Shown in pieces: positions 11,899 through 32,178 of a stretch of DNA of 64,000 bases. Source of the stretch: Candidatus Schekmanbacteria bacterium (GTDB lineage: Bacteria > CSSED10-310 > JACPHN01); NCBI GenBank assembly GCA_016188575.1, contig JACPHN010000086.1, positions 1 to 64,000 on the forward strand, in the 5' to 3' direction. Made by a program: the position numbers and the translations under genes. Position 1 is the first letter of the stretch. Each line of letters starts with the position of its first letter. A model generated the notes under the pieces. It was not told where the DNA came from and searched no databases. It was given only the letters and a program-made list of their open reading frames with translations.

Positions 11899-13881
11899 CT
11901 AGGCGAACCACCAGGCGATTCGGCGCGTGAGCCAGTCACCGACCAGCGCGCCGATCACGGCCTCGCCGCACGTTACCCTCGCCCGGCCACTCAGCCCTGG
12001 CCGCAGGTCGGGTCCCGTCTCGGCGAGTAGGGCGCGGGCGACGAACACGGATCCGCCCGGCCGTTCCTCCGCCGAGACCGCAGTGGCGACGACCGAGCCA
12101 GCGTAGCTCTCCAGTCGGGCTCCCCCGGCGACCTTCACGGCAACGCGGCATCCGGGATGAACGCTCAACGCCTCTTCCTGAGGGACGTCGACTTCGACCT
12201 CGATACCCTGTCGGCCGAAGATTCGCATGATCTCGCCGCCGCGGACGATGGTCCGGCCGACCGCGTCGCGCGCGTGCGGTGTCGAGACAATGCCATCGAT
12301 CGGCGCCCGCACGGCGGTGGCGGCATGCTCCGCCCGGAGCTGTTCGGCGCGCTCGCGAAGGCCGGCAATGCGCGCGCGGCGCAGCGCCAGCTCCTCCTGT
12401 TTGCCGCCACCAAGCGCGGCGACGAGCTCGCGTTGCTGCTGGTCGAGGTCGGCCTCGACGGCGGCGAGCTCCTCCTCCACGCGGCGACTCTGCAGATGAG
12501 CGACGACCTCTCCGGCCAGCACCGGATCGCCTTCCTCGACCAGGAGGCGGCGCACGGTGCCGTCCAGGGGCGCGCGCACGATCGCTTGTTCGCGCGGAAC
12601 GATTCGGCAGGGCGCCCGAAAGCTCACCGGCCAGGAGACGAAGGCCAGGATGAGCGTCAGCGCCGCCGGAACCGCCGCCCAGCGGGCCGCTCGGCGTCCG
12701 GGAAGGTCGCGCCAGCGCTCGCGGCTCTCGAGGAATCGGCGCAGCGGGAAACGCTCGTAGGTCCGGGCGTTGCGCAGCGCCACGACCGCGTTGTTTGCTA
12801 CGATCGTGGCCACTTCGATGTCGGCCTTGTCGACCGGGTCTGGGAGCTTCGCCTCGATGAAGAGCACCCCCGCTTTGAGCTCGTCGTCCACCAGGGGAAC
12901 GCCAAGGAAGAAGCCCGCTCCGGAGGCGGACAGGTGCTCGCGGAGCGCGATTTCGAGCGACTGGGTGTCGCGATCGCCGCGGTCTCCGGTCGCGCCGCGA
13001 GGAAGCGGCTGAACAAGCCGTCCGTCCGCGAAGTGAACCGCTCCAGTAGCGGCTTCGACGGCGGCGAGGAGGCGGGTGAGCCGCTGGATCTCAGGGTCCT
13101 TGCGGTTGACTCGTTCCTGTCCCGAGAGCACCCGAACCTCGAGCTCGCCGCGGTCGCGAATCGCCAGGCCGCACCGGTCGTAGGCGACGAGCGAGCGCAT
13201 GAAAGCGACGAGCTCCCGGCCCACCGCCTCAACGTCGAGGGATTCGTTCAGGGCGGCGCTGATGGTGAGGATCTCGGAAAGATGGCGGAGGCGGCGCTCG
13301 TTGGTGGTGGCGAGCTCGGCGTGGCTGATCGGCAAGCCGAGGTGGTTGGCGAGTGAGGCGAGGTGGGCACGACCAGCGGCGCTAAGATCCACCGTTGCGG
13401 CGAGCCCGGCAAGCGCCAGGACGGCGATGGGTCTGCCGGTGAAGGCGACGGGCAGGTAGAGCTCGAAGGCGGGTGGAGCGAGTCCCGGCGCGCTCGCCGC
13501 AAGCTCGGCGGCCACCATCTCGTGACCGGCGTGGAGCACGCGATGCCACAGGGGGACCTCCGTCTCGAGGTCGACACGCGCCAGGGCAGCGCTGTCGACG
13601 GCGATGGGGGATTCGATGCGAAAGCCATCGGCGGCTGGTCGGCAAATCGCGAGGACCACCTGGGCCGCGCCGACGACGTTGGCGAAGATTTGGGCCAGCC
13701 GTTGCCGCAGGCGATCGGCTGCGAGATGGTGCCCGAGCAGCTCGGAAACTTCCGTAAGCAGCGCGAGCGCCATGGAGTGGCGGTTGAGCAGGCGGTCGCG
13801 CTGGCTCAGCCGCGCGCGCAGCCGCTCGACCTCGCCGGCCGCGGTGGCCGGTAGCGGTTCGTGGTCCCGTTCTTCCGCCAC
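11899..13881 (-). CDS. GAF-domain HlyD-family membrane fusion protein
   Basis: The product is 660 residues from a GTG at 13881, five bases after the stop of the upstream GspE-like gene. Longer in-frame extensions run antisense-free through that gene and have no family similarity, so the short start is chosen. Order of parts: coiled N-terminus; a GAF-like domain at about 36-185; a second GAF domain at about 200-375 (DVEAVGRELVAFMRSLVAYD, GVPLVDDELKAGVLFIEA); a TM helix at about 401-420; then a biotinyl-lipoyl/HlyD hairpin (IVRAPLDGTVRRLLVEEGDP at 433-452, coiled coil, then TAVRAPIDGIVSTPHARDAV) and a beta-barrel adaptor domain. GAF-HlyD proteins are adaptors of envelope export complexes with a cytoplasmic sensory half. 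No ABC or RND pump gene is beside it. Its pairing with a GspE-like protein and nearby RiPP genes suggests a role in export, which is inference. Confidence 0.85.
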   Translation of the reverse strand: MAEERDHEPLPATAAGEVERLRARLSQRDRLLNRHSMALALLTEVSELLGHHLAADRLRQRLAQIFANVVGAAQVVLAICRPAADGFRIESPIAVDSAALARVDLETEVPLWHRVLHAGHEMVAAELAASAPGLAPPAFELYLPVAFTGRPIAVLALAGLAATVDLSAAGRAHLASLANHLGLPISHAELATTNERRLRHLSEILTISAALNESLDVEAVGRELVAFMRSLVAYDRCGLAIRDRGELEVRVLSGQERVNRKDPEIQRLTRLLAAVEAATGAVHFADGRLVQPLPRGATGDRGDRDTQSLEIALREHLSASGAGFFLGVPLVDDELKAGVLFIEAKLPDPVDKADIEVATIVANNAVVALRNARTYERFPLRRFLESRERWRDLPGRRAARWAAVPAALTLILAFVSWPVSFRAPCRIVPREQAIVRAPLDGTVRRLLVEEGDPVLAGEVVAHLQSRRVEEELAAVEADLDQQQRELVAALGGGKQEELALRRARIAGLRERAEQLRAEHAATAVRAPIDGIVSTPHARDAVGRTIVRGGEIMRIFGRQGIEVEVDVPQEEALSVHPGCRVAVKVAGGARLESYAGSVVATAVSAEERPGGSVFVARALLAETGPDLRPGLSGRARVTCGEAVIGALVGDWLTRRIAWWFA

Positions 13882-20997: not shown

Positions 20998-21279
20998 ATG
21001 GGTAGATTTCTCATGCGCACACAAAAAGCGGTTTACAATTTTCATGTCCCGTTGCCGCAGCATCTCTATGAGGCCCTGCGCAAGGAGGCGCAGCGGAGTC
21101 GCGAGTCCGCGACGCGCATCGCCCGAGAGGGTATCGAAATGCTCTTGAAGGAACGCAGACGGCGCCAGATCGCCGACGAGATCAGAGCTTTCGCCGAAGA
21201 GCTCGCCGGCACCCGCTTCGACCTTGACCCGGATCTCGAAGAGGCTGCGGTGGAGCGTCTCCTCGACGAGAGAGGATAG
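20998..21279 (+). CDS. Antitoxin, ribbon-helix-helix type, of a MazEF-like pair
   Basis: The product is 93 residues from the ATG at 20998, which has GAGGAGGGA about a dozen bases upstream; an in-frame ATG at 21013 is an alternative start. The N-terminal part (KAVYNFHVPLPQHLYEALRK) and the following helix (ESATRIAREGIEMLLKERRR) have the strand-helix-helix pattern of CopG/RHH DNA-binding proteins. The acidic C-terminal tail (LDPDLEEAAVERLLDERG) is the likely toxin-neutralising segment. Its stop codon abuts the toxin ATG directly. It should repress its own promoter through the 20904-20924 palindrome. Confidence 0.78.
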   Translation: MGRFLMRTQKAVYNFHVPLPQHLYEALRKEAQRSRESATRIAREGIEMLLKERRRRQIADEIRAFAEELAGTRFDLDPDLEEAAVERLLDERG

Positions 21280-21639
21280 ATGAGACGAGGCGATCTTTTC
21301 TGGGCTGACATACAACCTCGTTCCGGATCGGAGCAACAGGGAACACGACCTGTCGTCGTGCTCTCACACGATTCGTTCAACGATGTTTCGGCGTGGCGAT
21401 CCGTAATCGTTGTTCCTATCTCGACATCGGCACGACAGGCCGCGCGCGGGCCAACTGTCGTCACACTTCCGAAGGGAACTGGCGGGTTGACTGAGGAGAG
21501 TGTCGCGATTGCGCACCAGATCACGACGCTGGATCGATCGAAGCTGAACAATCGGATCGGGACGTTGCCCGCTCAGTTCGTGACGCAGCTCGAACGGGCG
21601 ATCCGGAACGCCCTTGATCTGACCGAGTCGGCCGATTAG
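21280..21639 (+). CDS. MazF/PemK-family endoribonuclease toxin
   Basis: The product is 119 residues with the complete family core: MRRGDLFWADIQPRSGSEQQ at the start, GTRPVVVLSHDSFND, then VIVVPISTSARQA and HQITTLDRSKL. MazF/PemK toxins cleave mRNA at short sequences. The RGD/W start and the GTRP loop (start of the S1-S2 region) are intact, so it is probably active. It is co-transcribed with the antitoxin (zero-base spacing). The 122 bases after it lead to the convergent radical SAM gene and contain no obvious terminator. The pair may serve as a stabiliser of this accessory region. Confidence 0.9.
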   Translation: MRRGDLFWADIQPRSGSEQQGTRPVVVLSHDSFNDVSAWRSVIVVPISTSARQAARGPTVVTLPKGTGGLTEESVAIAHQITTLDRSKLNNRIGTLPAQFVTQLERAIRNALDLTESAD

Positions 21640-21761: not shown

Positions 21762-23915
21762 CTACTCGCTCCCCCTGAGCTGGCGCTGGCGGAGATACGT
21801 TTTGAGGCCGATGAATCCCGAGGGGTTTTGCCAATCCTCCGCGTGGCGGTACGGATAGCGCACGGCCAGGCTCAGCAGCCGCCCACCCTGTTCGAGCAGC
21901 AGACCCATCGCGGCGAGCTCGGCAATCGCTCCGGGGATCTCGGAAGCGTCGACGCGCGGGTTCGCGCTGAGAGGTGCCAGCGTTGGCAACGCCCGGCGAG
22001 ACCGCGCCGAATCGCACGCCACGAGAATCGCCGCCGCCGCTCCGGTGAGCGTGACCTCGCGCACGCGCGCGCCAGGGCGGGTGTCGACGATCTCGACGCC
22101 ATCGCCAACCACGCGCATGGCCAGCTCCGGGCGCTCGCCGGCAGGGCGCTTCCAGAGATCCCGCCACTCGCGAACGATCGCGCGCACGCTGGCGAGGCCC
22201 AGGCGGGACGACTCAAGGGCGGAGCTCGAATCCTCACCGCCCGTTTCCCCGCCCTCCCCGAGGTAATGCGGCGGGGACGGCTGCAGGCCGCGCTCGTTCG
22301 CGTCCTCGAAATAGTACGCCAGATTCGCCAGCGTGGGAGCATCCACGGGATAGATCAAGGAATAGGCGTGGTACGGTACCAGCGCAATTCCATGCTGCTC
22401 GGCCAGGTCGTAGTAGGGGCTGAACCGACTGTAGCGGATGCGGAAAATCCCGCCCGGAGGTTGAAGGTGCACGAGCAGCGGCAGCCAGCTTGCCATCCCC
22501 GCGTACCATTCGTCCCGCTCGCCCGGGAACCGCGACAGGAAATGCCAGGCGACGTCGATGCCGAGCTCCCGACACCAACGGAGAAGCTGGATGTTCATCC
22601 ACGCGCGGTTGCTCTTGCCGAACGACTCCAACACCGCATCGCTCATGCTTTCGATGCCGGGCTGGATGCGGTGGACCCCGGCATCCGCCATCGCCTTCAG
22701 TTGCTCGCGTTTCAGATTAGCTGGGGTTTCATAGAAGAGGTGATGGGTTCGCCCGGACGCTGTGAGCCGAGGCAACACCGAGCGGATATGGGCCGGGTCG
22801 ATGATGTTGTCCAGGACCATGAATCGCCGCGTTTCGTAGCGATCGCCCAGCGTGAGGAACTGAGTGACAGCCCTCTCCGGGGAGCACGCCCGGTAGCGAA
22901 TCCCCACGCCATTGAGGCCGCAAAATGCACAGTGGTGTTTCTCTCCCCACCAGCACCCGCGGGCGGTCTGGATGGGCAGGGCCGGGCGGATGAACCTGCC
23001 GATCGGGCTCTGGCGCAGCGCGGCGAAGTAATCGTCGAAGTCGGGAATGGGCAGGCGGTCGAGGTCGGCCACCACCGCGCGGGGGGGCTCGGGAACGCCA
23101 CGGGGGCGGGACAGGCGGGGGCGGGAAGGCATCACGCCTTGGGGGAGACGCCCTGGATCGAGGTCCCGGCCGTGCTCGAGAACGAGCTGGCACAGCTCCG
23201 GGAACAGCAGATCCGCCTCGCCGGACACGACGAAATCGACCCAGGGAAACGCGTGCTGAACCGCCTCGCCCATCTCGGCTTCGCAGTTGGCGCCGCCCAT
23301 CATGGTGATGACCTCCGGAGCCACCGCGCGGATGCGGCGCAGCAGCGCCAGGGAAGCACAGTGCTGGTCAAAGGTGGAGCTACAGCCGACGATCTTCGGC
23401 CCGCGCTCGAGGATACGGGCGGCGACCGCGTCGACGAAGATGGACGCTTGCGCTCGCGCATCGCGCAGGACCTCCTTCCAGCGTCGCTCGTCCCCGCGCT
23501 CGGCCGTCCCCACGGCGACCTGGGTGGCCACGGTCTCGAGGTAGGCGTCGCAGTCAGGTTGGAAGTCCGGAAACGCGGCGGCCGCGAACGTCCACTCCCC
23601 AAGCAGGTACGGCGGACCAGTGGCGGCCGCGATCGCGAGGTACACATCGAGGCCGATGGCCTCGGCGAACGCAAAGTCAGGGTAGAGGACTTCGCAGCGA
23701 AGCGACGAGACGCGCAGCGAGGCCTTCAACAAGCCCAGTGCGAGCGACGGGCGATTGAGCTGTGCAATCGGCATTTGCACGAGACAGACATCTATTGCGG
23801 GCTTTGACTCCTGGTGGCTCTCCCGTGCCGGCGGATTCGACGCCGAGCCGCTATCTTCGGCGGCTACCCGCCCTCCGGCGGACCCGCTGGCTCCCGCCGC
23901 GCCCCACAGGGTCAC
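21762..23915 (-). CDS. RiPP maturation radical SAM/B12-binding protein 1
   Basis: The product is 717 residues. The GTG at 23915 overlaps the stop of the AKR-like gene in a GTGA arrangement and has GGAGGGGATAC in front, so translation is probably coupled. Residues about 40-100 hold VQMPIAQLNRPSLALGLLKA, followed by a B12-binding (Rossmann-like) region at about 165-260 (PKIVGCSSTFDQHCASLALL, MMGGANCE, VDFVVSGEAD). The 4Fe-4S motif is ARGCWWGEKHHCAFCGLNG at 318-336, with Cys321, 329 and 332 in C-x7-C-x2-C spacing, as is typical of RiPP maturation radical SAM protein 1 rather than the classical C-x3-C. These enzymes modify precursor peptides, in several cases as B12-dependent C-methyltransferases. 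The peptide substrate is unknown here. It is the second gene of the AKR-rSAM minus-strand operon. Confidence 0.9.
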   Translation of the reverse strand: MTLWGAAGASGSAGGRVAAEDSGSASNPPARESHQESKPAIDVCLVQMPIAQLNRPSLALGLLKASLRVSSLRCEVLYPDFAFAEAIGLDVYLAIAAATGPPYLLGEWTFAAAAFPDFQPDCDAYLETVATQVAVGTAERGDERRWKEVLRDARAQASIFVDAVAARILERGPKIVGCSSTFDQHCASLALLRRIRAVAPEVITMMGGANCEAEMGEAVQHAFPWVDFVVSGEADLLFPELCQLVLEHGRDLDPGRLPQGVMPSRPRLSRPRGVPEPPRAVVADLDRLPIPDFDDYFAALRQSPIGRFIRPALPIQTARGCWWGEKHHCAFCGLNGVGIRYRACSPERAVTQFLTLGDRYETRRFMVLDNIIDPAHIRSVLPRLTASGRTHHLFYETPANLKREQLKAMADAGVHRIQPGIESMSDAVLESFGKSNRAWMNIQLLRWCRELGIDVAWHFLSRFPGERDEWYAGMASWLPLLVHLQPPGGIFRIRYSRFSPYYDLAEQHGIALVPYHAYSLIYPVDAPTLANLAYYFEDANERGLQPSPPHYLGEGGETGGEDSSSALESSRLGLASVRAIVREWRDLWKRPAGERPELAMRVVGDGVEIVDTRPGARVREVTLTGAAAAILVACDSARSRRALPTLAPLSANPRVDASEIPGAIAELAAMGLLLEQGGRLLSLAVRYPYRHAEDWQNPSGFIGLKTYLRQRQLRGSE

Positions 23916-24880
23916 GTATCCCCTCCGGCATCCAACCCGCCGACCTTGCGAATGAGGCCTCCGAGGTGCTCGAGTCCAGCGGCCGGGCCGTCGGGGAGCG
24001 GCCCCGCGCGGAACGCCTCCACCATCGCGTCGATCTGGCCGCGGGAGCGCGGCGCGGTGAGCAAGACGTCGGCATAGGGCAGACGCAACGCAAAGCGGTA
24101 GAGGTCGGCGGGCGACGGCAGCCAGGGGCGGTCGCGCAGCCGATAGGCGTCGAAATAGGCGGCGGCGCCGCTGCAGGTCTTGAACAGGATGCAACCCGGC
24201 CGCTCCTCCGCGGGTCGATCAAGCAGTGGGCCGGGCTCGCTTTCCAGGCCGCGATGCACCGGGTTGTAGCGGAGCATCACCACGTCGAGCAGCCCGCTGT
24301 CGAGCCAGCGGCGCGCCAGCGCCCGGTCGTGAAAGGAAGCGCCGACAAAGCGGGCGTACCCGCCGTCCTTGAGGCCCGCCGCCACCCCCACCGCGTCGGC
24401 CATGGCCTGATCGGAACGCTCCTGCGGGCCGCCGGCGCGGCGCAGCCCGAGCTGGTCGCGGAATCGCTCCAGCCAGGCGCCGTCCCGCAACTGGCCGATG
24501 GCGCTTCGAAAGACGTCGCCCGGCTCGCTGGTCACCCAACCGAACATGAAAATGTCCACGTGGTCGACCCCGAGCTCGAAGAGCTGATCGAGCAGTACCC
24601 CGGGGAGTTTTTCCGGGTGGTCGACGTACGTCACCGCCGCCAGTATGATACGCTCGCGGTGGCGCGCGCGGGAGCCGCACAGGCGGCGCACGGCGGCGCT
24701 CATGCGGCGATACGTATGGTGATGCAGATCGCTCGACCAAAAGAGGAAATTGACTCCATGGCGAACGGCGTACTCGACGTCCGGGCTGGACAGCCCGGCG
24801 CCACCGCCAATTCCCATGCGGCTGACCTGCAGCCCCGTGCGCCCCAGCGTGGCGGTGGGCAGGAGCTCATCGAGTTTCAT
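23912..24880 (-). CDS. Aldo/keto-reductase-like protein without the catalytic tetrad
   Basis: The product is 322 residues from the ATG at 24880 (a GTG at 24886 is two codons upstream). The fold signature is clear: ATLGRTGLQVSRMGIGGG, LLDQLFELGVDHVDIF, GYARFVGASFHDRALARRWL and VVMLRYNPVHRG. The catalytic positions look replaced. The Asp/Tyr region reads VNFLFWSSDLHHH instead of FFDTADVYG, the Lys strand reads IILAAVTYV instead of VIATK, and the His strand reads IFMFGWV instead of LYQIH. It may therefore be a non-redox scaffold or use other chemistry. It is followed by the radical SAM gene with a 4-base overlap and is divergent from the SpaB_C gene with only 24 bases between starts. Confidence 0.85.
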   Translation of the reverse strand: MKLDELLPTATLGRTGLQVSRMGIGGGAGLSSPDVEYAVRHGVNFLFWSSDLHHHTYRRMSAAVRRLCGSRARHRERIILAAVTYVDHPEKLPGVLLDQLFELGVDHVDIFMFGWVTSEPGDVFRSAIGQLRDGAWLERFRDQLGLRRAGGPQERSDQAMADAVGVAAGLKDGGYARFVGASFHDRALARRWLDSGLLDVVMLRYNPVHRGLESEPGPLLDRPAEERPGCILFKTCSGAAAYFDAYRLRDRPWLPSPADLYRFALRLPYADVLLTAPRSRGQIDAMVEAFRAGPLPDGPAAGLEHLGGLIRKVGGLDAGGDT

Positions 24881-24904
24881 GGGCACGACCGGAGTAAGGA
24901 TCGC

Positions 24905-25906
24905 ATGACGAAGGATTGCTTGCAGACGATCTTATCTGCGTGGGAGGCGCGGGGCAAGGGCGAACGGCTCGCCGCGCTCGCGCAGGGTGCGGGGATGACG
25001 CCGCACCGCCTGATGTGGCTGACAGAGCGTTTCATCGCAGGCGGGCTCGACCGTGTTGCCAGGGCGAGCGACGAGCTGGGTTGGGTGCAGATCGGCCTGA
25101 TCGTCTCACCGCAGGCAAGCGCCGAGGCGATCGGGCACTCGAGCCTGCTCGCGGTCGTGTCCCGCTGGCAGGGCGAGGGCCTGATCCGGCGCTTCTGGTT
25201 CATGCGCAAGCCGCCAGGATTCCGGCTGCGATTCGAAGTGCCCGCCGAACGGGAGGACGAGCTGCGGCGAGCGGTTGAGGATCTCGTTCGGGACCTGATC
25301 GCGAGCGGCGCGTGCGGAGGCCACGAGCTCGGAATCTATGATCCCGAGGTGTTCCAGTTCGGCGGCGAGGCGGGGCTGGAAGTCGCTCACGACTGGTTCG
25401 CTGCGGACAGCCTGCTGTGCCTGGAATACCTACGGGAACGAGCCGGCGGCAGGGCGGCGCCGGCGCCCATGGTCATGGGCTTGATGGTGACACACCACCT
25501 GTTCCGCGGCGTCTGCCTTGACGACTGGGAGGCGTGGGATTGCTGGCGGCGGATGGACCTGGCGGGTCGACGGCCGCCGGTTTTCGAGGACACGCGCCCG
25601 GAGGTCGAAAAGCGTCATCGCGCGGTGCGCGCCCGACTGGCCGCGCTCGTCGCGGCGCATCGCGAGCTCCCGAATCGGCTTGGCGGCGAGCTCGGCCGGA
25701 TGCTCGGCCAGTGGTACGAGGCCAACCGCCGGGCGACCGCGGGCCTGGCGGCCGCCGCGAAGCGGGGCGAGCTGCTGTACGGCCCGCGCCTCATCGTCCC
25801 GTGGATGGCCATCTTTCACTGGAACCGCCTCGGCCTGGCAATCGTCGATCAGCATAGCCTCGTCTACCAGATGCAAGCGTTGCTCGACCCCAAGCAGGAG
25901 CGCTGA
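24905..25906 (+). CDS. Stand-alone SpaB_C (lantibiotic/thiopeptide-type) elimination-domain protein
   Basis: The product is 333 residues from the ATG at 24905, with AAGGA five bases before it. Residues 1-50 are a small helical cap (CLQTILSAWEARGKGERLAA). The rest matches the thiopeptide-type bacteriocin biosynthesis domain, with WVQIGLIV, FWFMRKPPGFRLRFEV at about 97-112, YDPEVFQFGGEAGLEVAHDW, and a C-terminal MAIFHWNRLGL. In full-length LanB this domain removes glutamate from glutamylated Ser/Thr to leave dehydroamino acids; stand-alone versions do this, or cycloaddition, in thiopeptide pathways. The matching LanB glutamylation protein is the convergent next gene (31-base gap). The two halves of one activity are on opposite strands. 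Confidence 0.88.
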   Translation: MTKDCLQTILSAWEARGKGERLAALAQGAGMTPHRLMWLTERFIAGGLDRVARASDELGWVQIGLIVSPQASAEAIGHSSLLAVVSRWQGEGLIRRFWFMRKPPGFRLRFEVPAEREDELRRAVEDLVRDLIASGACGGHELGIYDPEVFQFGGEAGLEVAHDWFAADSLLCLEYLRERAGGRAAPAPMVMGLMVTHHLFRGVCLDDWEAWDCWRRMDLAGRRPPVFEDTRPEVEKRHRAVRARLAALVAAHRELPNRLGGELGRMLGQWYEANRRATAGLAAAAKRGELLYGPRLIVPWMAIFHWNRLGLAIVDQHSLVYQMQALLDPKQER

Positions 25907-25936
25907 CCCGCGATCCGTGGGTCTGGCGCGATCGCG

Positions 25937-28639
25937 TCACGCCAGTGGCAGGGTGACATACAGGTCGTGCGCAAATGCCTCGGGCTCGGGCAAGACCTCC
26001 GTCACGGTCACCCTGGGCCCCGCGGGAGCGCCAGGGTGCAGGGCCGCTTTTTCGAGCGCCAGCAGGGACAGGGGATTTTCGAAATCCACCAGCAGGGGAG
26101 GGCGATTCGCGGCAGTGCACACGTACGCTCGCACCGGGATTCCGTGCTGCTCCCGCCATTTGCGAACCGCGCGGACCGTGGCCAGTGGTCCGCCAGCAGC
26201 GTCGAGCGCGGGCACCGAGCTCCACGCGAACCGCCACGCCTGGCGGGCCAGCACCACCCGACCGAGCTCGAGCCGCGGGGTACGCGGCCCTGCGACGAGC
26301 TCCGGCTCCAGGACAGGGCGATGGCACGGTATCGCATGGCGGTGCATGAAGGACTCGGCAAGCAGCGTGGCCGCGGGCGAGCAGTGAGTGCCCAGAGTCC
26401 CGTGGTATACGGGAAGGACGGGGACGCCGAGTCGCCGCGAGCGGACCTCCACCTGGTCATGGGCACCGAGGGAAACGTCGAGGTCGGCCACAGGCAGAAC
26501 CCGGACACCGTGTCGCTGGCGGCCGGTCGGGATCCCGTGGTGGCAGGCGATGGCCGCCGGGAACGGGCAGGGGCGGGCGGCGAGATGCGCGCCCCAGCCG
26601 TGGCCGCAGTAGACCTCGGCGACGAGATGGTCCGGATAGCGCTGCTGGAGCCGCTCCGCGTGGCGGCGAAACGCCGCGTCGAGCGCCTCGAGCGCGGTGC
26701 CGGGCGCGCCGCCGCAAACCTGAGCGAGCGGAATCAAGAAGCGCGAGATCCGCGTCCACCCAGGCGCAGACAGGACATGGAGCACCCAGGCGCGGTCGCC
26801 GTCTCCGGGCGCGAAAAGCTGAATGAGCACATCGAGCGCCAGCGGGGGAAGGCGCTCCTCCGAGGTATCGGGCGCCGTGTCTCCAAGCAGCGCCTGCACG
26901 TCCGCGCGGCAGAGGCGCACCACCTCCCCCCCCGCCGCAAGCGCACGGGCACAACGGTCGCGCAGCAGCTCGTGGTAGCGCTGCCGCAAATCGCGCCCGA
27001 CCGCCGTCGCCGGGCAGGCCGCGCGCGCGTGGGCCGCCCTCCAGCCCGCCGCATCTTTCGGGAGCTCGATCCATTCCCCTGCGTCCAGCGCGGAGGCACT
27101 GCCCGCAACGCGGAGCCGCTCCACCACGGCCGGCAGCCATTGCGAAGAGGCGCCGATCCGAAGCATGAGGGATACGTAATCCGCCAGCTCCTCTCCCAGC
27201 GGGGCGAGCGCGTTCGCACCGAGCTCGCCCCCCCAGTCCCCCAGCACGAGCTCCGCCTGGACGAGAGTCCGCATTGGGTACAGGTCGCCGTCTGGTTGTA
27301 GAATTTTCCGGGAGTCGATCCCGAGCTCGCCGAGGCGTTCGGCGATCCTGGCGCCGGTCACCGCCGGCCAGGGCGCGCCATCCGCAGCGTTCTCCCGCAC
27401 CGCACAAATCGCGATCACCTCGTCGACCTTTCGGCGCGCGGTCGCGGCCGCGCTCTCATCGGCATCGCCGGGAGTGCTCCCGGTTCCTGCTGGCATCGCC
27501 TGGCGAACCGCCGCGAACGGTTCGGTGTCGAATGGCAGGGCCTCGACACCCAGACCGAGAACCTGCGCGGCCAGCAGCGCGCGGATCGGGCGCAGCAGCG
27601 CCTCCGGGTCAGCGGCGCCGTCCAGGGGGGTGCCGAGCGCGGCGAGCAGCTCCGCCACCGTCCGCTCGCCATCAGCAGCCAGCTCGATCAGCCGGGCAAC
27701 CGTCGGGTGCGCTCGCAGGCGTCGCCGCTGCTCGACTCGGTGCTCGCGCAATCCCCAGAGCTCGAAGTGCTCCCCCTGTCGCCGCAGGGTAGGATTGACG
27801 TAGGCACGCAGGTCCGGCAGCAGGGGTCGAGCGACGCGCTCCACAAGCACTGCGCTCGCGGGCCAGACTGGCCGCACCAGGGGATCGCCCGAGGTGACAG
27901 ATGCGGGTGGCGGCAGCGGACGAGCGGTAGGAACGTTGCTGACGGGAATCGCCTGGACTCCGGCGAAAAGACCGTGCGCAGTGGGGCGGGCGCATGCCCG
28001 GGCGAAGTATCGAAACAAGGACTGGACCGCCTGGCGGAAGCGCTTGTCCGCCAGTGTGGAGGCTCGGCGCAAGGCCAGACCGGGAAGCTGGCCGGCGAGC
28101 TGCGGATTGGCCAGAGCAAGCGCCGAGCGCAAGGGGTCCTCGCCGAAACCGGCGATGAGCCACGCGGCGCTCTGCACGAGCGCCCGCTCCAGGCGCGCCT
28201 CGAGGCATTGCTCACGCGGGGCGCGCGCGGAGGACGCGGCGGCGAGCCCGAGCGCGCAGTGCAGCAGGCGGATCTCGGCGGGCGTCGCGGCACTCGACCC
28301 GGCTGGCGCCAACCGCTGCTCGATGCGCGTCTGGAGCGCGGGGGGCAAGCGGAAGGGATCCTTGCGCAGGCGACGGATCACGTCCAGAAACAGGGCGCGA
28401 TCGGCGCCGGACCCGAGAACCGCGAGCCCCGCGGCGAGCTCTCCCCGCAGGCGCACCGCTTCGGCCTCGCGCTCGACATCGGAGTCGAGCAGCTCGCCGG
28501 TCTCGCGGCGAATCTCCGGCGGCAGCAACTTGTCGAGCGCATCGAAGCGCAGCACGGGCGAGCGCAACACGGCCGCGGCGGGTAACGCATAGGTCGCGGG
28601 CGAAGGCGGTCTGCTCGGAGTCGGGTCGAAGCAGGTCAC
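25937..28639 (-). CDS. LanB-type lantibiotic dehydratase, glutamylation part only
   Basis: The product is 900 residues from a GTG at 28639 with GAGGTG seven bases upstream; an ATG at 28705 (22 residues longer) is the alternative. Family features in order: AAAVLRSPVLRFDAL near the start; FRYFARACARPTAHGLFAGV in the first third, corresponding to the usual R-TPFGLFAG; then YVNPTLRRQGEHFELWG, a central ILQPDGDLYPMRTLVQAEL, and a final LLVDFENPLSLLALEKAAL. The size fits a split LanB that ends before the elimination domain. It would glutamylate Ser/Thr of a precursor peptide using Glu-tRNA. Small LanB proteins can also act as peptide aminoacyl-tRNA ligases. The presence of a separate SpaB_C gene favours dehydration. 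No LanC cyclase gene is found nearby. Confidence 0.9.
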   Translation of the reverse strand: MTCFDPTPSRPPSPATYALPAAAVLRSPVLRFDALDKLLPPEIRRETGELLDSDVEREAEAVRLRGELAAGLAVLGSGADRALFLDVIRRLRKDPFRLPPALQTRIEQRLAPAGSSAATPAEIRLLHCALGLAAASSARAPREQCLEARLERALVQSAAWLIAGFGEDPLRSALALANPQLAGQLPGLALRRASTLADKRFRQAVQSLFRYFARACARPTAHGLFAGVQAIPVSNVPTARPLPPPASVTSGDPLVRPVWPASAVLVERVARPLLPDLRAYVNPTLRRQGEHFELWGLREHRVEQRRRLRAHPTVARLIELAADGERTVAELLAALGTPLDGAADPEALLRPIRALLAAQVLGLGVEALPFDTEPFAAVRQAMPAGTGSTPGDADESAAATARRKVDEVIAICAVRENAADGAPWPAVTGARIAERLGELGIDSRKILQPDGDLYPMRTLVQAELVLGDWGGELGANALAPLGEELADYVSLMLRIGASSQWLPAVVERLRVAGSASALDAGEWIELPKDAAGWRAAHARAACPATAVGRDLRQRYHELLRDRCARALAAGGEVVRLCRADVQALLGDTAPDTSEERLPPLALDVLIQLFAPGDGDRAWVLHVLSAPGWTRISRFLIPLAQVCGGAPGTALEALDAAFRRHAERLQQRYPDHLVAEVYCGHGWGAHLAARPCPFPAAIACHHGIPTGRQRHGVRVLPVADLDVSLGAHDQVEVRSRRLGVPVLPVYHGTLGTHCSPAATLLAESFMHRHAIPCHRPVLEPELVAGPRTPRLELGRVVLARQAWRFAWSSVPALDAAGGPLATVRAVRKWREQHGIPVRAYVCTAANRPPLLVDFENPLSLLALEKAALHPGAPAGPRVTVTEVLPEPEAFAHDLYVTLPLA

Positions 28640-28753
28640 GGTTGCACACCTCGCGGGCGCCAGCCGCCGCCGAGAGCATTCCGGGGCGGCAGGTCGAGCC
28701 GTCATTATGAGCCGATCCCGTGCCGGTGTCCATGCGGCGCGGTGCGGGTCGCG

Positions 28754-28782
28754 TTGATCCACCCGACAGGGAATGATATGAT
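28754..28782 (+). promoter_or_regulatory. Predicted promoter of the export operon
   Basis: TTGATC at 28754-28759, a 17-base spacer and TATGAT at 28777-28782 (five of six matches to the -10 consensus) face the HlyD lipoprotein gene. The predicted start of transcription, near 28789, coincides with the left arm of an inverted repeat. Confidence 0.6.
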
Positions 28783-28815: not shown

Positions 28816-28879
28816 CGGTGTGGGTGACAATGTGCTGCGCGAGATGGGAGTGAAGGCCTTGGATTACGGTACTGCGAGG

Positions 28880-30028
28880 ATGTCGCGCCGCCTCATCGCC
28901 GTCGTTATCGCGGGTGGGTTGTGCTTGCTGGCAGGCTTGCCGGCCTGCACCGGCGGGGAGCGGAGCGCCGCGGTCGCCGCCGCCGCGCCGGTCCCGGATG
29001 AGCGGCCGCGCCCGCCGCGCCCGCAGCGCGTTCAGGTCGTGACAGTGCGGCCACAACGACTCGAGACGGCCGTTGAAACGACAGCGACTTTGATGCCGGC
29101 GGCTGAGGTCGAGGTATTCCCGAAGGTCACGGGAGTTTTGGCTGAGCTACTCGCCGAGGAAGGCTCGCGCGTGCGCAAGGATCAGATCCTCGGAGTCGTG
29201 GAGGATGGGCGGGCCAGGACCACTGCTGGCCTGCGAGGCGCCGAGCTCGCCAATCAAGAGAGTCGCCTGCGCCGCACGGAGGTCACCTCGCGGAGTGGCC
29301 TCACGCCCGAGACCCAGTTCGAGCAAATGCGCTTCGAGGTCGATTTCGCCCGCTACCGCCAGGAGCTCGCGGCTCTCGATCTCGAAGACACGCGCATCCG
29401 CTCGCCCATTTCGGGCACGGTCACCCGGCGCTACTGCCAGCTCGGCCAGCGGGTCACGCCGGACGACCCGGTGTTTCTGGTCACGGATCTCACCGTGCTC
29501 AAGGCACAGGTTTATCTCCCCCAGGAGCTTCTCGGCCGCGTCGCCGCCGGGAGCCCGGCCGAAGTTGTGGCGGCCGGCATCGGGGCGACCGCCGAGGCGC
29601 GGCTCGAGCGCATCGATGAGCGACTCGATCCGCGCAGTGCAACGGCCCGCGCGCGGCTGCGAATCCTGGCCCCAGCCGCGAGTCCCCTTCGTCCCGGCAT
29701 GGCGGCCAGCGTGCGCATTCCCCTCGCCGCCTCGCCGCTCACCATCCTCGTTCCCCGCGCGGCCTTCGCGCTCAGCTCGGCCGCCGACCAGGTTTTCACG
29801 GTACGGCAGGGGACGCTGCAGCGCCGCCGCGTCACCGCTCGCCCCTATCGCGGCGACCTCTTCACGGTGGAAGGCGATCTCGCCGCCGGTGAGCAGGTTG
29901 CGGTTGGCACCTTTCCCGACGGCAGCCGCCTGGTCGAGGGTGCTCCCGTGACCGTGGAGGAAACGCCGCTTCCCCCGCTACCGGCGCGGGTCTTCCCGGA
30001 TCCGCGGGACCGCGGCGACAGCTCCTAG
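28880..30028 (+). CDS. HlyD/AcrA-type membrane fusion lipoprotein
   Basis: The product is 382 residues from the ATG at 28880 (GCGAGG directly upstream); in-frame codons from 28742 are ignored because this start opens a signal peptide. The lipoprotein signal is LLAGLPACTGG, with Cys23 the likely lipidated residue, although Pro at -2 is atypical. A biotinyl-lipoyl domain (EVEVFPKVTGVLAELLAEEG at about 75-95), a short hairpin and the second lipoyl half (DTRIRSPISGTVTRRYCQLG) follow, then beta-barrel and membrane-proximal domains. It is the periplasmic adaptor of a tripartite export system. It is co-transcribed with the PqqD-M50-HlyD gene (8-base gap). No inner-membrane pump is encoded alongside. 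Confidence 0.9.
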   Translation: MSRRLIAVVIAGGLCLLAGLPACTGGERSAAVAAAAPVPDERPRPPRPQRVQVVTVRPQRLETAVETTATLMPAAEVEVFPKVTGVLAELLAEEGSRVRKDQILGVVEDGRARTTAGLRGAELANQESRLRRTEVTSRSGLTPETQFEQMRFEVDFARYRQELAALDLEDTRIRSPISGTVTRRYCQLGQRVTPDDPVFLVTDLTVLKAQVYLPQELLGRVAAGSPAEVVAAGIGATAEARLERIDERLDPRSATARARLRILAPAASPLRPGMAASVRIPLAASPLTILVPRAAFALSSAADQVFTVRQGTLQRRRVTARPYRGDLFTVEGDLAAGEQVAVGTFPDGSRLVEGAPVTVEETPLPPLPARVFPDPRDRGDSS

Positions 30029-30036
30029 CCGCGCCG

Positions 30037-32178
30037 ATGGTCGGCTCCTCGGCTCGCACGACGACCTTTTCTCCGGCCGCGGAGGAAGCAGGGCCGGATC
30101 GCTTCAGTCCGCGCCCCTGCCTGCGCCGGGACCTGGTGATCACCGAACAGGTTCGCGACCAGAAAACCACGTTCGTGATCAAGAACCCGGCGAGTCAGAC
30201 TTACTTCAGTTGTGGATCCGTCGAGATGAAGCTCCTCAGCCTGCTGGACGGCTCGGTCACCGTCGACGGGCTTGCCAACGCGGCACGCGAGCGGCACGGG
30301 CTGCGCCTCTCGCTCCGCACGGTGCAGACCTTCCTCGCCGAGCTCAAGCGGCGTGAGCTGCTCGAGCGCAGCCCCGCAGAGGCGCTGTTGCTCCTCCGGG
30401 AACACCAGCTCGCCAGGCGCAAGCAGGCGCGCCGCGGGTTCGCAGGTCGCTACCTGGTAATGAGCTTCTCGCTGTTCGATCCCGACCGCCTGCTCGGATA
30501 TTTCGAGCCGCGCTTGCGGTTTCTCATGTCCCGCCCCGTGCTGGCGGTCACGGCTGCGCTGGTCGCAGCCGGTTTCGCTCGCATCTTGCTGAGGGGAATG
30601 AGCCTCGAGCCGGGCGAAAGCCTTGGTGTCGTGCCCTGGAAATGGCATCACCCGTTGCTCACCTTCCTGCTGCTGCAAGCCACGTTAGTGGCCCACGAGC
30701 TCGGCCACGCCTTCGCCTGCAAGCACTACGGCGGCGAAGTGCGGGAAATCGGCCTGATGCTGTTCTACTTCACCATGCCGGCGATGTATGTGAACGTGTC
30801 CGACGCATGGCTCTTTCCCGCGCGCCGCCAGAAACTCTGGGTCACCTTCGCGGGCGGCTACGTCCAGGCGACCTTGGGGGCGGCGGCGGGTATCGTCGCG
30901 ATGCTGATCGGGACCGGCAGCGAGCTCACCATCGTCCTGGACCAGGTATTCGTGATGACGTGCGGTACTGCCTTGCTCTTCAATTTCAATCCGCTGATCA
31001 AGCTCGACGGCTACTACGCGCTTGTCGACATTCTGGAGGTGCCACGGCTGCGCGAGCGCTCCTTCGCCTATCTCCGCCGGTGTCTGGCCGCGGCGGTCGG
31101 CCATGCGGCTGCGGAGACGTCGCCGGACCCGACTCTTCGTGAGCGCCGGATTTTCCGCCTCTACGGAGTGGCAGCCGCCCTGTACACGGGCATCTTTCTG
31201 ACCGTTGGCTTGAGCGCGATCGCCCAGGCGCTGGCGGCAAGCTACCAATGGGTCGGCGTCGCGGTGTTCGCTCTGCTGGTGGTGCGCCTGGTCGGCTCGC
31301 AGGCGCGCAAGGCGGGGAGCGTCCTGGTCTCGAGCCTCCGGCGACGAGCGGGGCGCCGGCGGGCGCTGGTGAGCATCGGGGCGGTGCTCATGCTGGCCGC
31401 GCTGGCGGTCTTTGGCAGGGTTTCGCGCGAGGTCCGGGGGGAGGGTCACATCGTCGCCGCCTCGGAAATCGCATGGCGCGCCCCCCGCAGCGGAATCGCC
31501 ATACCCGCCGTGGGCCGCGGGGCAGCGGTGGTGCGCGCCAACAGCATAGTGTTCGAAATTCGGGATCACGACCTCGAAGCGCGGCTGGATGACGCCCGTC
31601 GCGAGCTCGAAACTCAGCACTGGTCGGTGCTTCAGGCGGCTGCCGGCGACGATTCGGCCGCGGCAGCGGTGCTGGGCGCGCGCGAAATGTCGCTGAGAAG
31701 CCGGGTGGCGGCGCTCGAGCGCGAACGCGACGCGACCGTCGTCCGTGCACCATTCGATGCCATCGTCTTGACGCCGCGCTTTTGGCAACGCGCTGGGCAG
31801 GCAGTATCCGAGGGCGAAGAGGTTTGTCGTCTTGGTGACGCGAAGGCCGTGTACTTTTCGGCCATGGTCCCCGCAGTCGACGTCCTGGGAGCTCGGCCCG
31901 GCGCTACGGTGAGGGTTCGCCTCCGCGCGCGCCCCCAGGTAGCGCTGACCGGGACCGTAGTCAGCGTCGCGAGCGAGCCCATCAAGGCGGAGGATGCCGA
32001 AAACAGGCGCGACGAGTCGCTTTATGAGGTGCGCGTGGCGCTCGAGGCGGCTGACGCCGGGGTTCGCCTGTTGCCCGGGCTGACTGGCGTGGCGGCGATC
32101 GACGCGGGCACGCACAGCCCCATCGACGCCGCCTGGCACGCCATCCGGCGGGCGGTGCGGGCCGACCTCTGGGTGTGA
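30037..32178 (+). CDS. PqqD-M50 protease-HlyD fusion protein
   Basis: The product is 713 residues. Residues about 28-115 form a PqqD-like winged-helix domain (RRDLVITEQVRDQKTTFVIK, DGSVTVDGLANAARERHG), the RiPP leader-recognition fold. A multi-spanning site-2-protease (M50) part carries HELGH at 220-224, the zinc motif, and FNPLIKLDGYYALVD at 317-331 with the third ligand Asp324. After further TM helices, a TM at about 450 leads to a HlyD segment (IAWRAPRSGIAIPAVGRGAA, later TVVRAPFDAIVLTPRFWQRA) and a beta-barrel. One polypeptide thus combines likely peptide binding, intramembrane proteolysis and periplasmic adaptor functions. Related fusions occur in RiPP clusters. It probably removes the leader or exports the modified peptide (inference). 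Confidence 0.88.
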   Translation: MVGSSARTTTFSPAAEEAGPDRFSPRPCLRRDLVITEQVRDQKTTFVIKNPASQTYFSCGSVEMKLLSLLDGSVTVDGLANAARERHGLRLSLRTVQTFLAELKRRELLERSPAEALLLLREHQLARRKQARRGFAGRYLVMSFSLFDPDRLLGYFEPRLRFLMSRPVLAVTAALVAAGFARILLRGMSLEPGESLGVVPWKWHHPLLTFLLLQATLVAHELGHAFACKHYGGEVREIGLMLFYFTMPAMYVNVSDAWLFPARRQKLWVTFAGGYVQATLGAAAGIVAMLIGTGSELTIVLDQVFVMTCGTALLFNFNPLIKLDGYYALVDILEVPRLRERSFAYLRRCLAAAVGHAAAETSPDPTLRERRIFRLYGVAAALYTGIFLTVGLSAIAQALAASYQWVGVAVFALLVVRLVGSQARKAGSVLVSSLRRRAGRRRALVSIGAVLMLAALAVFGRVSREVRGEGHIVAASEIAWRAPRSGIAIPAVGRGAAVVRANSIVFEIRDHDLEARLDDARRELETQHWSVLQAAAGDDSAAAAVLGAREMSLRSRVAALERERDATVVRAPFDAIVLTPRFWQRAGQAVSEGEEVCRLGDAKAVYFSAMVPAVDVLGARPGATVRVRLRARPQVALTGTVVSVASEPIKAEDAENRRDESLYEVRVALEAADAGVRLLPGLTGVAAIDAGTHSPIDAAWHAIRRAVRADLWV

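Follow-up and report, generated by a model that had tools for sequence, protein, structure and literature searches.

The window analysed here, 64,000 nucleotides of contig JACPHN010000086.1 from a Candidatus Schekmanbacteria genome, contains a locus that we explain as a gene cluster for RiPP maturation with a split LanB at its core. Families and residues were read from the sequence and the chemistry is proposed from them, and as a whole we consider this the best explanation with moderate confidence. In this locus a side-chain activator that depends on tRNA occurs together with a B12-binding radical SAM enzyme, in a phylum represented by eight genomes in the collection searched. It also reveals that some stand-alone SpaB_C proteins, from the window, from myxobacteria and from actinobacteria, form a conserved subclade in which a catalytic histidine is swapped.

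Gene Content and Organization of the Locus

The four genes that an earlier note had read from positions 21762-28639 are present with the same coordinates and strands (Table 1), as confirmed by family matches and by coding-like GC contents at the three codon positions (about 0.70-0.79, 0.49-0.54 and 0.82-0.85 in all four genes). Its description of a RiPP locus is also supported. The LanB and SpaB_C genes converge and are separated by 30 bp, and the SpaB_C gene diverges from the AKR-like/radical SAM operon across a gap of 18 bp. In this operon the radical SAM gene overlaps the stop of the AKR-like gene by 4 nt and starts near 23915 with a GTG codon; position 24194, given as its end in the list of open reading frames, belongs merely to the longest ORF. 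ARAGORN called a tRNA-Ala at 27460-27550 (-), but this lies inside the LanB coding sequence and is most likely a false positive.

Table 1. Features of the locus and of the genes directly beyond LanB.
Feature	Position	Strand	Length (aa)	Basis and remarks
B12-binding radical SAM protein, TIGR03975 (RiPP maturation radical SAM C-methyltransferase)	21762..23915	-	717	PF04055 and PF02310
AKR-like protein, very divergent	23912..24886	-	324	Weak matches to NCBIfam and PDB 3h7r
Stand-alone SpaB_C protein (Lant_dehydr_C)	24905..25906	+	333	TIGR03891, PF14028
LanB glutamylation-domain protein (Lant_dehydr_N)	25937..28639	-	900	PF04738; without elimination domain
Divergent promoter-like pair, LanB (-)/HlyD gene (+)	28704..28782	.		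Sequence match to promoter consensus
HlyD/RND-type periplasmic adaptor	28844..30028	+		TIGR01730, PF13437; start 28844 or 28880
M50-type intramembrane metalloprotease (HELGH)-HlyD fusion	30037..32178	+		PF13437, PF02163; start may be 30136

Neither a YcaO protein nor a LanC, which would be expected in a class I lanthipeptide cluster, was found among the window genes scanned. The sole PF05147 match in the genome lies on another contig (C95), in a frame that opens with a lipoprotein-like signal. Within a few kb of this LanC-like frame are what appears to be an asparagine-synthase-like gene and a small frame resembling a peptide gene, and the region (L224) is possibly a lasso-type locus. Directly left of the cluster, the translations at 20998-21639 (+) read as an apparent toxin-antitoxin pair of a ribbon-helix-helix-like and a MazF/PemK-like protein. 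A GAF-HlyD fusion at 11899-13881 (-) is a further HlyD-type adaptor, approximately 8 kb left of the cluster.

The LanB Protein and Its Relatives

The LanB protein matched PF04738 with 130.3 bits and stops before any elimination domain. The split LanB proposed earlier is thus borne out, as the glutamylation domain and SpaB_C are encoded by separate genes. A profile alignment to 21 LanBs showed that the protein keeps Y80, R83, R87, T89 and R464 of NisB, and an arginine is present in an R14-like motif (VLRSPVLR) that was identified by eye outside the profile-aligned part. NisB does not dehydrate at all without Y80 or H961 and is less active without R83, R87, T89 or R14, whereas a D121A mutant is nearly normal (PMC4341554). 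Judged by these residues, the window protein is likely a glutamylating LanB. Queried one sequence at a time, the PDB yielded no structure related to LanB, SpaB_C or the radical SAM protein, and profiles were used instead. As a single-protein query LanB gave two weak matches only among 377 myxobacteria, and a relative was absent from the seven other genomes of the phylum that were searched.

Trees built from profile-aligned domains place the window LanB together with the LanBs of two myxobacterial loci, L114 and L172; the window SpaB_C clusters with the stand-alone proteins L118c/L119c and L114c/L172c. Since L114 and L172 also encode precursors, the sequences place the window pair in a clade of RiPP split LanBs. 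L114 (Myxococcota) has the order GG-leader precursor, two MBL-fold proteins, LanB, SpaB_C, B12-binding radical SAM protein and DMATS prenyltransferase, and also encodes a CPBP protease; its radical SAM protein scored 106 bits against TIGR03975, which is under the cut-off. L172 encodes a Nif11-type precursor, an MBL-SpaB_C fusion, LanB, HlyD and a C39-ABC transporter. The precursors of L114 (136-393) and L172 (9796-10164, -) share the ending STxMCxW and, together with the MBL-fold proteins, look like an undescribed RiPP family, in which the prenyltransferase of L114 could act on the terminal Trp.

Radical SAM and AKR-Like Proteins

The radical SAM protein belongs to the RiPP maturation family to which it had been assigned from its cluster motif. 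It matched TIGR03975 with 678.8 bits (cut-off 281.85), contains the PF04055 and the B12-binding PF02310 domains, and has the motif CWWGEKHHCAFC, which corresponds to C-x7-C-x2-C. C-methylation would be the activity predicted from the family, but B12-binding radical SAM enzymes are not always methyltransferases (PMC12257519).

The AKR-like protein had no match in Pfam even at E<=10; its NCBIfam match (E=2.5e-4) is far under the cut-off and its match to PDB 3h7r is weak (E=0.007). In the latter, the sole PDB alignment obtained, all four residues of the Asp-Tyr-Lys-His AKR tetrad are replaced. The gene proposed earlier as AKR-like tailoring exists, but a tailoring role is doubtful because the tetrad is absent from this alignment. 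Rather than an ordinary reductase, the AKR-like protein is more likely to be a partner of the radical SAM protein, with a structural or repurposed role. No relatives of it were found in 79 loci encoding relatives of the radical SAM protein, or in viral contigs.

Co-Location in the Genome and in Related Loci

In the genome (9.2 Mb), PF04738, PF14028 and TIGR03975 are each represented by a single gene over cut-off, and a stretch of 7 kb holds all three. The chance of such a co-location of LanB, SpaB_C and the radical SAM gene, counting approximately 7 kb on both sides in a genome of 9.2 Mb, is roughly 1 in 650, and since all three are single genomic copies, it is unlikely that they are neighbors by accident. 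The 79 loci of radical SAM relatives, taken from species genomes, had no LanB relative near the radical SAM gene (hmmsearch with LanB profiles), and SpaB_C occurred in only one of them (L058), leaving 78 without LanB or SpaB_C. This locus (Acidobacteriaceae, DAHUXF010000135.1) encodes on one strand a SpaB_C cut by the contig end, a TIGR03975 protein (653 bits) and a second B12-binding radical SAM protein. SpaB_C is carried by 34 of 396 Acidobacteriota and 19 of 377 Myxococcota genomes; TIGR03975 was over cut-off in 7 of these 53 carriers, with close co-location only in the genome of L058. The combination of LanB, SpaB_C and B12-binding radical SAM protein is therefore recurrent but rare. The earlier note had named two observations that would speak against a single pathway, the loss of glutamylation residues from LanB and a failure to find the genes together elsewhere. 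Y80, R83, R87 and T89 are kept in the alignment, and the genes do occur together, as LanB, SpaB_C and B12-binding radical SAM in L114 and as SpaB_C and TIGR03975 in L058.

The Stand-Alone SpaB_C Protein

The SpaB_C protein matched TIGR03891 with 128.4 bits (cut-off 48.45) and PF14028 with 82.8 bits. In NisB numbering, which was anchored by S958, H961 and R966 in the motif SIIHVHNNR (PMC4341554), it keeps R784 (R101 in the window protein), E823 (E148), D843, S844, H963 (H305) and R966 (R308). In the window protein R826 is replaced by Q151, Y827 by F152, E837 by H162 and H961 by I303. An alanine mutant of H961 in NisB shows no dehydration (PMC4341554). With H961 and R826 lost, in a clade that has a different His, the designation as an elimination protein is unproven. 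AlphaFold single-sequence models of SpaB_C and of the AKR-like protein were poor (pLDDT 42), and that of the AKR-like protein did not confirm an AKR fold.

Split LanBs, extra stand-alone SpaB_C proteins and a SpaB_C-PIMT fusion were noted before; chemistry other than elimination was suggested, and the role of the extra SpaB_C proteins in lanthipeptide clusters was left open (PMC7268733). Because H162 (E837) is fixed and H961 is lost in the subclade, mutation could address this question directly. An Acidobacteriota genome (G615, L178:3133-6100) was also observed to have three consecutive stand-alone SpaB_C genes.

Alternative Explanations

The four genes very likely act in one RiPP pathway. That they are chance neighbors from two unrelated pathways, in which the radical SAM/AKR operon would serve another precursor than the LanB/SpaB_C pair, would fit with their location on opposite strands and with the 78 loci of the nearest radical SAM relatives that have neither LanB nor SpaB_C. 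Against this stand the single genome-wide copies within 7 kb, the small gaps between the genes, the SpaB_C/TIGR03975 operon of L058 and the gene set of L114, which make it very improbable. Hardly more probable is a LanB of the PEARL type, a short LanB that has no SpaB_C partner and carries out an ATP-dependent ligation at the C-terminus. A stand-alone glutamylation-type domain next to a B12-binding radical SAM protein, in a locus without LanC, has a precedent in the tmo pathway (PMC11002830), but PEARLs typically occur without an elimination domain (PMC11962472) while the window LanB has a SpaB_C partner, and its closest relatives in L114 and L172 also have SpaB_C, together with precursors whose cores contain Ser/Thr.

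Within a single pathway, the reaction of SpaB_C is harder to assign. The changes E837 to H and Y827 to F and the loss of H961 are common to 12 of 12 clade members (window, L114, L172, L118, L119 and L216-L222). In the actinobacterial-type loci L216, L217, L218, L220 and L221 the altered SpaB_C adjoins a full LanB with intact eliminase residues, and would not be needed for elimination there. Because the residue swaps are common to the clade and full LanBs adjoin some of its members, these proteins may catalyze another reaction or eliminate by an alternative route. The window SpaB_C could thus be no eliminase, but act in another way on a glutamylated or otherwise activated peptide, like the extra SpaB_Cs found in some class I clusters or like the thiopeptide enzymes that form pyridine rings, and dehydroamino acids would then not be required in the product. 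TsrE (7cww), which has the SpaB_C fold, likewise misses the H961 equivalent in the alignment, and the same possibility was raised in PMC7268733. In the window, L114, L172, L219 and L222, however, no other elimination domain was found beside LanB; L219 and L222 have the altered SpaB_C beside the glutamylation domain only, and L219 also encodes a LanC with metal-site motifs, which implies that dehydroamino acids are made. We regard a non-eliminating SpaB_C as possible, somewhat short of an even chance, and for the window protein itself the chances of elimination appear evenly balanced. It seems unlikely that the whole clade with His at 837 does not eliminate glutamate and takes the glutamyl ester into a different, undescribed reaction, which together with the B12-binding radical SAM enzyme would here give a RiPP class that contains neither dehydroamino acids nor lanthionines.

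Candidate Substrate Peptides

The candidate peptide assumed in the earlier note was not found in the window, where searches with a GG-leader motif, the STxMCxW ending and NHLP/Nif11 profiles gave no credible precursor. A frame at 25959-25864 (-) that ends in SSNACIW was rejected as it is antisense to SpaB_C and has no RBS. At least 16 of the 79 loci of TIGR03975 relatives encode NHLP/Nif11 precursors, many with cores rich in Val/Ala/Thr. The only NHLP precursor called over the TIGR03793 cut-off in the genome of the window lies on contig C157 (L209/L213/L215), beside a full NHLM export trio (TIGR03796/03797/03794). Its leader ends in EELGDIAGG and is followed by the core TAFSVFVLVYTAAFS. There was no TIGR03975-like match on this contig. 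Since the orphan precursor has its exporter beside it and the maturation set is likewise an orphan in the same genome, their pairing is plausible; going by this complementarity, the C157 peptide might be a substrate on which the window enzymes act in trans, although we consider this doubtful.

The genome has a second RiPP locus, on contig C168 (L212), whose existence speaks against this pairing. It has NHLP precursors and enzymes of its own: an ApyD-like B12-binding radical SAM protein (400 bits), a YydG-like radical SAM protein and a PoyD-type epimerase (453 bits). Its low GC over the first 6 kb suggests transfer.

Export and Protease Genes beyond LanB

The statement that the locus lacks an ABC transporter holds for the window genes scanned, but it overlooked the HlyD-like and M50-HlyD genes that lie immediately beyond LanB and are divergent from it. 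The adaptor matched TIGR01730 with 173.4 bits, in addition to PF13437, and is likely a lipoprotein, as its sequence reads a LLAGLPAC signal. The M50-HlyD fusion scored 223 bits against the daptide intramembrane metalloprotease family (NF041824, daptide_HExxH), under the cut-off of 300, and its N-terminus has a weak PqqD/RRE-like match (PqqD E=0.02). Three promoter-like sites were found in 10.9 kb, where 0.6 were expected. Two of them are located in the LanB/HlyD intergenic region and face apart, at 28732-28704 (-) with a 10/12 match and at 28754-28782 (+) with a 9/12 match and an extended -10. The adaptor/protease pair may therefore be co-regulated with LanB.

Proposed Pathway

We propose that LanB would use glutamyl-tRNA to glutamylate the side chains of Ser/Thr in a peptide that carries a leader. 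SpaB_C would then act on the glutamylated peptide, most likely forming dehydroalanine/dehydrobutyrine by elimination, which we slightly favor as outcome and which would need a rearranged active site with H162 and/or H305 in place of H961. Before or after this step, the TIGR03975 enzyme would C-methylate the core at unactivated carbons, and trimming and export of the product would probably fall to the divergent HlyD and M50-HlyD proteins. The substrate would be encoded outside the window, with the C157 NHLP precursor as candidate.

Comparison with Known Systems

Pyritides need a further SpaB_C-like cycloaddition enzyme. A second SpaB_C for [4+2] cycloaddition, as in thiopeptides and pyritides, was not found in the window genome, which has one PF14028 match. 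Thiopeptides also have a YcaO, and none was seen among the window genes scanned. Like the window, pyritides do have a split LanB without YcaO or LanC (PMC9247985, PMC11002830). The split class I dehydratases (LanB_B; for example pinensin, thiopeptide TbtB/TbtC, goadsporin) also have the glutamylation domain and SpaB_C on separate proteins and keep Y80, R83, R87 and T89. In contrast to these, the window SpaB_C lost H961 and R826 (E823 is kept), and the locus has TIGR03975 and AKR-like partners and no YcaO or LanC. In the tmo (3-thiahomoleucine) pearlin pathway a LanB-domain protein is combined with a B12-binding radical SAM C-methyltransferase without LanC, as in the window, but this LanB is a PEARL and SpaB_C is absent (PMC11002830). 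Proteusin-type TIGR03975 loci (for example L013, L028, L034, L037) share the radical SAM family; they have NHLP/Nif11 precursors in cis, which the window does not, and no LanB.

The closest LanB and SpaB_C clades are those of L114 and L172, the former also with a B12-binding radical SAM protein, but MBL-fold proteins and cis precursors of the STxMCxW type are present there and not in the window. The loci L118 and L216-L222, of the type LanB-LanC-SpaB_C(-PIMT), have a SpaB_C of the same subclade as the window, with H at 837 and without H961; theirs is often found next to PIMT or fused to it, and usually together with a full-length LanB. The earlier claim of novelty, that no named class combines such genes, was too strong, since pyritides, whose split LanBs come without YcaO or LanC, and the tmo pathway, which combines a short LanB with a B12-binding radical SAM protein, were already described (PMC11002830), as were split LanBs and extra SpaB_Cs (PMC7268733). 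Each part of the locus comes from a known family; it is not a categorically new system, but its gene combination is new and, with the SpaB_C clade, sets it apart as a variant within a known kind.
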